From a virus: a DNA stretch of 26,477 bases. Shown piece by piece: positions 4,994-7,999 of this stretch. How positions within the stretch are numbered: the first letter of the stretch is position 1; each line of letters begins with the position of its first letter. Made by a program: the position numbers and the translations under genes. The stretch lies in IMG/VR virus record IMGVR_UViG_3300032516_000169, positions 1 to 26,477 of that record; one strand, 5' to 3'. The notes under the pieces are model-generated. The model was not told the origin of the DNA and searched no databases. It saw only the letters and a program-made list of their open reading frames with translations.

Positions 4994-5200
4994 TTAGGTA
5001 CACCTTCCTGAGTATTGAGCAACCATGTACCAATCCGGAGCCGTTGCATCCGTATTGTACTTTGCATTGTAGTCTTTGACATGCTTCTTAGCTTCCGCTT
5101 CGTCGTCAAAGTACAAGGTTTCGTCGATCCGTGATCCCCACCCGCGCTCATATTCAACGATATCAACGCGGTATGCTTTGGGAGGAGTTATTTGTGCCAT
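4994..5200 (-). CDS. Small phage protein, leaderless transcript
   Basis: 68 residues, MAQITPPKAYRVDIVEYERGWGSRIDE..., with a FDDEAEAKKHVKDYNAKYN helix near the middle. Probably a compact beta-beta-alpha protein; no family known to me. The -10 box TATAAT ends exactly 6 nt before the ATG, so the A of the start codon is the predicted +1. It is followed by gene 4572-4991 after 2 nt. Confidence 0.75.
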   Translation of the reverse strand: MAQITPPKAYRVDIVEYERGWGSRIDETLYFDDEAEAKKHVKDYNAKYNTDATAPDWYMVAQYSGRCT

Positions 5201-5234: not shown

Positions 5235-5254
5235 CAGGAATTTTACAAAGAGAA

Positions 5255-5291: not shown

Positions 5292-5907
5292 CATTGTTTT
5301 CACGCTGTTGGCTTCCGGATGCAGTTGCCAATCCCCGCCTCGCACCTTCTATGGGTCGGTTGCTTACGCATCCTTCCCTCCAGTGTTCTCGAGACTACTT
5401 TATCTATAAATTATCATATAATTAATTCATCACCACCCGCGCCGGTCGCGTTACTGGGAGTGGACGGGTTTCTTAGGCCCTTCAAACAATTAGGTTATTA
5501 AAATTCACTTGAATATATCTCCACCATGCCGATGATTCGGGTTTGGTTTACTTCAATCTAAACACAATACGGTTCAGTGAATAGGGAGGATAACCGTTCA
5601 CACCGGCTTCCCGAACAATCCTACTACCTATCACCAGAACTTCGGGAGTATAAAACACCCGGCAGTTCCGACCGTTTCGTCCTTCCTGGACTGATCACTT
5701 GTGTACTTTCCGGCCGTACAGTAGGACCGGATCTACATGGGGCTTTGTGCCATTTACCCACACGATACACAGACAGGAATAAAATGCACCTGCTGCGGCA
5801 CCCTCTTTCGAGTTACCATGAGTGTTTTTCGACTCTCCAGTCTAGCCTGGGATCCTAACCACTGGCCAAAGAACGCTGGAAGGGCTTTCACCTTCTCATC
5901 CCCGCAT

Positions 5908-5935
5908 CTTTATAGAAAATAAATTTTCTATAAAG
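5908..5935. repeat. Perfect 12-bp inverted repeat
   Basis: Twelve bases from CTTTATAG... pair with their complement around a 4-nt loop. It is AT-rich and lies inside the large structured RNA near its 5' part; no T-run follows it, so it is more likely a structural arm than a terminator. Confidence 0.8.
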
Positions 5936-5988
5936 TTACATCCTGTGTCTTGGGTGGGGCAGGATGATACGCCTTTCGGCATAGTCAG

Positions 5989-6150
5989 TTATCCATTGAA
6001 TCCGAAAAGCGAATCGTACACGTCGAGTAAATCCTCATCCGATAGATTCGGTAAATCTTTGACGGTAGTTGGTGATGCAAATTCCAGATCTGAAAGATCT
6101 GCACCATCAGTGGCGGCGGCGCGAATCTTGTCTTCTATAAGTTGTCTCAT
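5989..6150 (-). CDS. 53-residue phage protein (LSDEDLLDVYDSLFGFNG)
   Basis: The frame starts MRQLIEDKIRAAATDGADLS and ends LSDEDLLDVYDSLFGFNG. AGGAA lies 5 nt before the ATG. The C-terminal 'LSDEELxDLYxxLFG' pattern recurs in small proteins of T4-like phages as far as I recall, which supports a real gene. It is acidic and helical; function unknown. It sits between two structured RNA blocks of one apparent transcript and is too short for ordinary gene-finding cut-offs. Confidence 0.75.
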   Translation of the reverse strand: MRQLIEDKIRAAATDGADLSDLEFASPTTVKDLPNLSDEDLLDVYDSLFGFNG

Positions 6151-6159
6151 CTTTCTTCC

Positions 6160-6441
6160 TTATTTATTACAAAATCCCTTGCTTTGGTCTTGAACCAAAC
6201 GATAGGCGGTCAGTCAAACATGCTTGCAGGGTTCTTCTAACGAATACCTTCAACCTACGCATCCCCATTCAAGGGCGTATAAGAAACTTATTGCTGACGA
6301 CTGAAAGGCTACTAATGTGCTGAGGTCTCAGTCCACCGATAACATCAGTCCTCTTCCAAAATGCAACGGAACTTGAAGAACACATGACTTTGCACCGCCA
6401 TATGCCTTCTCGCCAATCGCCAGCAATAAATTCCCTAACTT
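6160..6441 (-). ncRNA. Structured RNA domain at the 5' end of the transcript
   Basis: From the predicted start (~6441) to the gene at 6150 there is no convincing frame but much structure: TTATTGCTG (6429-6421) pairs with CAGCAATAA (6296-6288) to close a ~125-nt domain; inside it CTGATGT/ACATTAG (with one G-U) encloses CTGA-GACC-TCAG, and TCTTC/GAAGA forms another arm. Downstream are ACGCCC/GGG..GCGT and TTTGGT/ACCAAA hairpins. It could be a long leader controlling the 53-residue gene or the 5' part of the large RNA. Confidence 0.5.
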
Positions 6442-6447
6442 GATTCT

Positions 6448-6476
6448 ATTATGCGCTCTTTTATTTATACTGTCAA
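6448..6476 (-). promoter_or_regulatory. Sigma70 promoter of the structured RNA locus
   Basis: Minus strand TTGACA (6476-6471), 17-nt spacer, CATAAT (6453-6448). Predicted start near 6441, a dozen nt before the first long-range helix. Confidence 0.75.
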
Positions 6477-7437: not shown

Positions 7438-7616
7438 GATAAATCTGTACTCCGTGCCTTTGTATAGTGTGCATTCAAATCCTCAAGTGTCCAACCGGTT
7501 TTATGAAGTTCATCATGTAGTGATTTATTGTTCCAAAACCTATGATAAATCTTCATAACATCGACTATTGGCACTCTTCGAAGAGCATTGTAGGTATCAT
7601 CTTCAGTCATTGACAT
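7434..7616 (-). CDS. EDTFRRLKR/HGWT paralogue 1 (divergent)
   Basis: 60 residues, MSMTEDDTYNALRRVPIVDV... with KTGWTLEDLNAHYTK. It is the most divergent of four small paralogues (also 8009, 8342, 8514) sharing 'M..EDTFRRLKR..F.E' at the start and 'L..HGWT.EEF' at the end. AAGGAG lies 8 nt before the ATG at 7616. Function unknown; the amphipathic helix-loop-helix pattern would suit a small protein inhibitor or adaptor, which is inference. Confidence 0.7.
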   Translation of the reverse strand: MSMTEDDTYNALRRVPIVDVMKIYHRFWNNKSLHDELHKTGWTLEDLNAHYTKARSTDLS

Positions 7617-7999
7617 GTTTCATACTCCTTTATCAACTTATTCAGATGTGATGCGTGTTGTTCGAAATATGGACGATAACGAGGCGCCGACGCCAGCCCC
7701 CGGCACGCCGGCGCCACCACTACGACTGCCGCCGCCACCACCGTAGCCGCCGCCCGCTGCCAATATTGATGGCAAGCATCACGAAACTGATTTCTGTCTA
7801 TCTTTCCATCTAAGAAATCAAATGCGGCTTGTTTGAAGTTGTTGCTTTCTTGGTTTGGATGTAAATCGATCACATCAGAAATAAACTTCTTTCGTAGATC
7901 GATTGGTAGTTGGGTGAATTTGGAGAAGTCGTTGGTTGTGTGAGCATTAATGAAATCATCTGCTGTGAATGTTCCATATTTGATTGTATCGAAGATCAT
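7607..7999 (-). CDS. Paralogue B of the 1388-1804 gene, with its own Ala/Val insert
   Basis: 130 residues. The N-terminal ~75 residues are almost identical to the product of 1388-1804 (FTADDFINAHTTNDFSKF, then IDLRKKFISDVIDLHPNQES). The end (EQHASHLNKLIKEYE) is conserved too. The segment between, AAATVVAAAVVVVAPACRG, is Ala/Val-rich and encoded by GC-rich triplets, but differs in sequence from copy A. So the flanks are under constraint while the insert drifts or expands. GAGGAAAA precedes the ATG. It sits inside the four-paralogue cluster. Confidence 0.75.
   Translation of the reverse strand: MIFDTIKYGTFTADDFINAHTTNDFSKFTQLPIDLRKKFISDVIDLHPNQESNNFKQAAFDFLDGKIDRNQFRDACHQYWQRAAATVVAAAVVVVAPACRGLASAPRYRPYFEQHASHLNKLIKEYETCQ
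7681..7760. repeat. GC-rich low-complexity tract in paralogue B
   Basis: About 80 nt dominated by GGC/GCC triplets inside gene 7607-7999, at the same place in the protein as the tract at 1457-1569 but with a different sequence. Confidence 0.7.

Follow-up and report, generated by a model that had tools for sequence, protein, structure and literature searches.

A conserved phage RNA of modular build, with a hammerhead motif and a slot for passenger genes

Gene content, promoter, and terminator of the locus

The DNA analyzed here, referred to below as the window, is a virus record of 26,477 bases, and the locus under study lies on its minus strand. A short gene encoding 53 residues (ORF53) is situated there between two blocks of structured RNA, with a promoter upstream of the first block and an intrinsic terminator downstream of the second. 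The features are as follows.

6476-6448, minus strand: sigma70-type promoter, TTGACA-17-CATAAT, matching 11 of 12 consensus positions
6437-6413, minus strand: 5' arm of helix P1, pairing with 6304-6280 (covariation)
6304-6280, minus strand: 3' arm of helix P1, pairing with 6437-6413 (covariation)
6176 to 6275, minus strand: tRNA-like domain D2, with outer stem 6275-6270/6181-6176, a long arm, and a T-arm at 6199-6183 with the loop UUCAAGA
6155 to 6160, minus strand: ribosome site of ORF53, AGGAAG, read from the sequence
6150-5989, minus strand: ORF53, 53 aa, ATG at 6150 and stop ending at 5989, in slot 2 between D2 and hairpin C
5948 to 5983, minus strand: hairpin C, a GCCGAAAGGC hairpin followed by a CCCACCCAAGA box, common to L073, L074, L079, and L221
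5555 to 5709, minus strand: hammerhead module with three stems, core, and GAAA, from an alignment of members
5291-5247, minus strand: intrinsic terminator with a 9-bp stem (5291-5255) and a T tract, from sequence and recurrence in relatives
4994-5200, minus strand: next gene, with its own promoter TTGACT-16-TATAAT at 5234-5207

A 241-aa protein of the window is about 31 to 47% identical to jumbo-phage proteins (for example, those of PA5oct and Atu_ph07) among the 20 matches listed, and closer relatives of this protein were found in 34 viral contigs, including records of 210 and 385 kb. Elsewhere in the window, two paralogous ORFs (1388-1804 and 7607-7999) both run into repetitive Ala/Val-rich tracts, and positions 1552-1807 are 89% identical to the second copy.

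No DNA similarity to the window region was detected in 50,697 phage records. Ordered pieces of the 1.3-kb region were recovered in 4 of 39 records, which comprised those behind the 34 contigs plus five motif matches. A scan of viral contigs with the 5'-block motif GGGGATGN{17,44}CCTGCAAGCATG returned 19 stretches, 12 of which were loci of the same RNA and 7 of which were attributed to chance, and a scan with the hammerhead pattern contributed one further RNA (L119/L220) and the second half of a known one (L158, on the record of L081). A covariance model built on the shared 5' domain D2, designated R1, matched 14 of 36 records, corresponding to 12 distinct RNAs with the window counted. These members are WIN (the window), L072, L073, L074, L075, L079, L219, L220, L221, L222, L223, and L224; L079, L080, and L089 are identical across the 390 nt compared and were counted once. 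R1, run with stricter filters on nine named phages, matched none of them. A scan for CCGAAAGG/CCCACCCAAGA gave no new members and eight chance loci, and all ten loci from a scan of genome contigs were likewise chance. A 16-base motif of the 3' block found five loci with little matching beyond the motif in the record search and was set aside as chance. The viral contigs yielded no confirmed relative of either ORF53 or the downstream protein, and no description of the present RNA was found in open-licence PMC papers.

The initial annotation had called a near-perfect sigma70 promoter at 6448-6476 and had seen no other promoter ahead of the terminator. Both observations hold, as this is the sole promoter-like site (at least 9 of 12 positions) on the minus strand between 6490 and 5240, where one weak plus-strand site is also present. 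Loose promoter-like sites are frequent in shuffled sequence (1.9 ± 1.3 per shuffled region), so the weight of the site at 6476-6448 comes from how strong it is, where it lies, and the fact that it recurs in relatives. A promoter with at least 10 of 12 positions lies upstream of the RNA in 9 of the 12 members, with a distance to P1 of 10 to 15 nt in six members and of about 135 nt in L222 and L223; L220 is without an upstream promoter. Terminators were identified by rule in eight members, and L072 and L074 have terminator-like hairpins recognized by eye. L222 and L223 (= L095 and L093) likewise have a homolog of the next gene (4994-5200) downstream of the RNA.

The mRNA and the noncoding RNA had been proposed to share a transcript unless a separate start site lay just upstream of 5988 and a terminator between the two blocks. 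Neither a promoter nor a terminator was found between the blocks, the single match of the terminator scanner being a weak 5-bp stem within the 3' block. That ORF53 and the RNA form one transcription unit is supported by these comparisons, because the positions of promoter and terminator recur in relatives and internal promoters (at least 10 of 12 positions) behind D2 are absent in 11 of 12 members, the contig of L224 ending early. The primary RNA would start near 6441 and end at 5247, giving a length of about 1.2 kb. In L221, a 369-kb phage, a promoter-like site with 10 of 12 positions (TTGACA-17-TAAAGT) is located at +411 from the D2 motif, just ahead of the hammerhead, and the 3' part of the RNA may be made separately from it in that phage.

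Structured 5' domains and the gene slot

A long-range helix had been placed directly behind the promoter with a length of 9 bp; the helix itself stands, but it is considerably longer, with about 25 pairs in the window (P1, 6437-6413/6304-6280). Across nine members, 172 of 180 P1 cells are paired and both-sided changes occur in 9 of 20 columns; P1 was not found with the pattern used in L072, L220, and L221. The structure expected ahead of the short gene is borne out by the fold of the 5' block, which has a z score of -3.5, with none of 200 shuffles folding as well.

In 9 of the 12 members, the position of P1 is followed by TLS1, a tRNA-like module with a T-arm (listed by the rule of a 4-bp T-stem and a 7- to 8-nt loop), which is absent from the window, L079, and L220. 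Eight of these nine have a TLS1 outer stem of 8 to 9 pairs. The strand AAGTTCCTG (or a variant of it) is common to P1 and the TLS1 outer stem in L075, L219, L222, L223, and L224, so the two pairings are mutually exclusive. In relatives, AAGUUCCUG can pair either in P1 or in the TLS1 outer stem, and the RNA may thereby act as a co-transcriptional switch.

The second tRNA-like domain, D2, is present in all 12 members and has the acceptor-type stem, 5-bp T-arm, and 7-nt T-loop that characterize tRNA and tmRNA, here as an outer stem of 6 to 9 pairs and a T-loop of the form UUCRAGA, with a long arm between outer stem and T-arm. Both-sided changes occur in 15 of its 29 predicted pairs. The window D2 scores 85 bits with R1, whose D2 alignment sets the window outer stem one base off and so lowers the window pair count. 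R1 also weakly matches one true tRNA-Leu (18.5 bits, E of 0.03). ARAGORN and Rfam made no tRNA or tmRNA call on the tRNA-like parts.

Behind D2 is the slot that holds ORF53 in the window. The 53-residue gene and its good ribosome site (ATG at 6150, AGGAAG) had been recognized at the outset and are retained here; searches with ORF53 found no homolog, so its coding status rests on the ribosome site and on its fit to the insertion. ORFs of 44 to 129 aa occupy the slot in six of the 12 members (53 aa in the window, 129 plus 32 in L072, 44 in L073, 59 in L219, 58 in L220, and 75 or 84 in L223, the last without an evident ribosome site). The slot was counted as empty in the other six, a count that includes L221, where the script reported an ORF inside conserved RNA, and L224, where ORFs lie in and around an HNH insertion. 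The slot proteins are not clearly alike, the best pair having an E value of 0.02 across 10 residues. A related phage encodes, at another place, a protein with 70% identity to the 44-aa slot protein of L073. L073 has a further protein, of 48 aa, encoded between TLS1 and D2, for which a 45% relative occurs elsewhere in related phages; L221 also carries an ORF between TLS1 and D2, read from the sequence.

Two further comparisons delimit the inserted segment. The identity between L222 and L223 is 97.7% across the 386 nt that end at the slot and 78.7% beyond it, and the ORF is present in L223 only. The spacing between D2 and hairpin C is 16 to 19 nt in four gene-less members versus 195 nt in the window, where ORF53 accounts for 162. 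The reading in which ORF53 was inserted into a single long RNA of modular build, about 1.2 kb in length, was one of two offered initially and is supported because slots are empty in 6 of 12 members, because of the L222/L223 pair, and because of the D2-hairpin C spacing. The comparison with homologous loci lacking the gene, proposed at the same time, thus has its answer in six members that are gene-less and keep the chassis.

The other initial reading took the 5' block as a regulatory leader for the peptide. A cis-regulatory leader (riboswitch-like or an attenuator) for ORF53, with the 3' block as a separate RNA, would agree with the order of leader, ribosome site, and gene and with the good promoter. 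However, P1 and D2 are conserved where no gene or unrelated genes follow, and neither a promoter nor a terminator separates the two blocks, which makes this explanation very improbable.

The hammerhead and its inverted core pair

The 3' block of the window contains the parts of a hammerhead ribozyme.

5704-5699/5567-5562, minus strand: stem I, ACACAA/UUGUGU
5698-5692, minus strand: core GUGAUCA, with G3 at 5698 and C8 at 5693
5691-5688/5682-5679, minus strand: stem II, GUCC/GGAC
5678-5675, minus strand: GAAA
5675-5671/5573-5569, minus strand: stem III, ACGGU/ACCGU, with a 97-nt insert in the window
between 5568 and 5567, minus strand: predicted self-cleavage site, GUA/UUGUGU, at the NUH triplet position before stem I

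The arrangement of core CUGANGA, GAAA, and NUH with three stems is that of a hammerhead, and the window differs from it only at the compensated pair 3-8. In eight aligned members, all 128 pair cells form, and both-sided changes occur in 8 of 16 pairs (18 cells), with covariation in stems I, II, and III. Of 500 shuffles, none matched the alignment in pairing, in cell count, or in covariation score, one did so in the number of both-sided pairs, and 130 did so in the number of pair types. With the partner strand slid out of place, pairing was at most 51%. A strict descriptor recovered 8 of the 11 members known at that point, with no matches in 6 Mb of Markov sequence. The hammerhead is also present in the later members L220 and L219, the latter with one bulged base in stem II, and in L073 most of the 3' block is missing, the hammerhead included. 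In L224 (G045), near the contig end at 12163, a gene judged by eye to be of HNH type starts directly behind stem II and interrupts the ribozyme.

The Rfam hammerhead models gave scores below gathering (23.2 bits in L074 and L075 versus 48.5, with the wrong topology) and no match in the window. At gathering, Rfam also misses the compact phage hammerheads of L125 and L147, which makes it an insensitive test here. The 3' block alone folds with a z score of -2.0, with 1 of 20 shuffles as good. It also contains an AT-rich, near-perfect palindrome (window positions 5908-5935), by virtue of which the region matches itself on the opposite strand.

The core of the window reads GUGAUCA, compared with CUGANGA in the others, so that C3 is replaced by G and G8 by C. 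Pair 3-8 is C-G in seven of the eight aligned hammerheads and G-C in the window, and among 66 distinct descriptor matches the window alone has a pair other than C-G. No copy with a mismatched G/G or C/C at these positions was found in the 1.59 Mb of sequence examined. Bases 3 and 8 pair in the active hammerhead fold, and a natural covariation of C3-G8 to U3-A8 is on record (PMC3088659). In another hammerhead, C3G or G8C alone abolishes cleavage and the double mutant partly restores it (PMC11167929). No report of a natural G3-C8 hammerhead was found in open-licence papers. The G3-C8 pair of the window is a natural compensatory exchange in the predicted catalytic core, seen in one genome only, and the ribozyme that carries it should be active, perhaps more slowly. 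A working hammerhead with G3-C8 in nature would support the C3-G8 core pair with direct evidence from evolution.

The same two core changes could instead mark a degenerate remnant in the window genome, the RNA acting uncut. The minimum-energy fold of the module, which is not a hammerhead, is in keeping with such decay. The module has a z score of only -1.66, with 12 of 200 shuffles folding as well; its centroid fold is the hammerhead, with stems I and II complete and four of the stem III pairs formed. Loss of the hammerhead in L224 and L073 points the same way. Yet the two changes compensate exactly, and the remaining core positions and the stems are intact, so that a remnant appears quite unlikely.

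An active hammerhead would cut the transcript between 5568 and 5567, giving a 5' RNA of about 870 nt and a 3' RNA of about 320 nt. The 5' RNA would comprise P1, D2, and ORF53, with its 3' end within the ribozyme structure, and the 3' RNA would end in the terminator hairpin. ORF53, as the passenger of the slot, would be translated from the primary RNA or from the 5' cleaved RNA. With a hammerhead present, the 3' RNA probably does not stay joined to the mRNA part for long.

Relation to known RNA systems and interpretation

Searches of Rfam at gathering and at E values of up to 10 returned no credible family for the RNA; a match to nuoG in L219 (E of 0.0011, 25.8 bits, below the gathering score of 33) was mostly sequence. 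GOLLD and ROOL are, like the present RNA, very large structured RNAs of phages and prophages, and their Rfam models gave no match at E values of up to 10 in the window and up to 5 in L072 to L075. GOLLD can hold tRNAs in a linker, and GOLLD and ROOL are often near tRNA islands, whereas the tRNA-like parts of the present RNA are not tRNAs by ARAGORN and its slots hold genes; the word "hammerhead" is absent from the main text of the GOLLD/ROOL paper (PMC12286853).

The tRNA-like domain of the present RNA shares a layout with tmRNA, which consists of a tRNA-like outer stem and a T-arm, has no D stem, and carries one long arm. The ORF of tmRNA lies inside the tRNA-like fold, whereas the present ORF lies outside it, and ARAGORN identified no tmRNA. 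Optional, interchangeable ORFs in a structured RNA are also a feature of group I and group II introns and of HEARO, which carry ORFs in peripheral loops, and the HNH gene of L224 adds to this likeness. In contrast to those elements, no split gene was seen around the present RNA, and no Rfam match to group I or group II introns or to HEARO was found.

Intergenic hammerheads of phages have the same core, three stems, and NUH site, and stem I is CACAA/UUGUG in the copies found with that pattern. The present module differs from them in the large structured insert of stem III, in place of a small loop, in its position inside a giant RNA, and in the G3-C8 pair of the window. Such compact hammerheads were common in the phage contigs, with at least one in 52 of 73 newly fetched loci and two or more in 25. 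They form arrays on the same strand, with a spacing of a few hundred to about 1,300 nt, of four copies each in L121, L143, L169, and L178 and of three each in L115, L122, L128, L161, L167, and L182. In L125 and L147, ORFs apparently lie between compact hammerheads.

These arrays bear on the possibility that the structured blocks are mRNA processing signals, with host RNase P cutting the tRNA-like domains and the hammerhead cutting itself to release the slot genes as short, end-protected mRNAs, as in tRNA punctuation or intergenic hammerheads in operons. The abundance of compact hammerheads and their placement between genes in L125 and L147 are consistent with processing, as are the triple hammerheads that flank ardA in Agrobacterium (PMC3088659). 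Within the present RNA, a tRNA-like outer stem and T-arm lie directly 5' of the slot, and related phages encode, at other places, relatives of the 44-aa and 48-aa proteins inserted in L073. Against this, D2 is kept in the gene-less half of the members, most of which also keep the hammerhead and terminator, and the conservation of P1 and the 3' domain exceeds what processing needs. The processing explanation is unlikely, although the abundance of compact hammerheads in phage contigs means that it has to be taken seriously. Since the chassis persists in half of the members with no gene in the slot, a functional phage RNA with passenger genes is preferred to a cassette that serves processing alone.

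Judged by the comparisons above, the locus encodes a genuine phage RNA that is conserved, modular, and equipped with a hammerhead. The most probable reading, and one in which we have reasonable confidence, is that of a transcription unit of a jumbo-phage lineage consisting of a modular, self-cutting RNA of about 1.2 kb, with ORF53 as the passenger of a slot. From 5' to 3', the predicted RNA would contain P1, TLS1 (in most relatives; lost in the window), D2, the gene slot, the hammerhead, the 3' domain, and the terminator. The initial annotation had the transcription unit right, offered the insertion as one of its two alternatives, and overlooked the hammerhead and the tRNA-like domain.

A broader proposal, which we put forward tentatively, is that members represent a new class of giant phage RNA, in which phage genes come and go on a self-cleaving, tRNA-mimicking chassis and the hammerhead would part the coding and noncoding functions of a shared transcript, with a possible co-transcriptional switch and, in the window, an inverted G3-C8 core. 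GOLLD, ROOL, and similarly large RNAs of phages have no known function. A family whose RNA brings its own cleavage site, includes tRNA-like domains, and occurs in nature with a gene or without one would lend itself to clean experiments, in which the RNA could be compared cut and uncut, with and without its passenger, and with and without its tRNA-like part.
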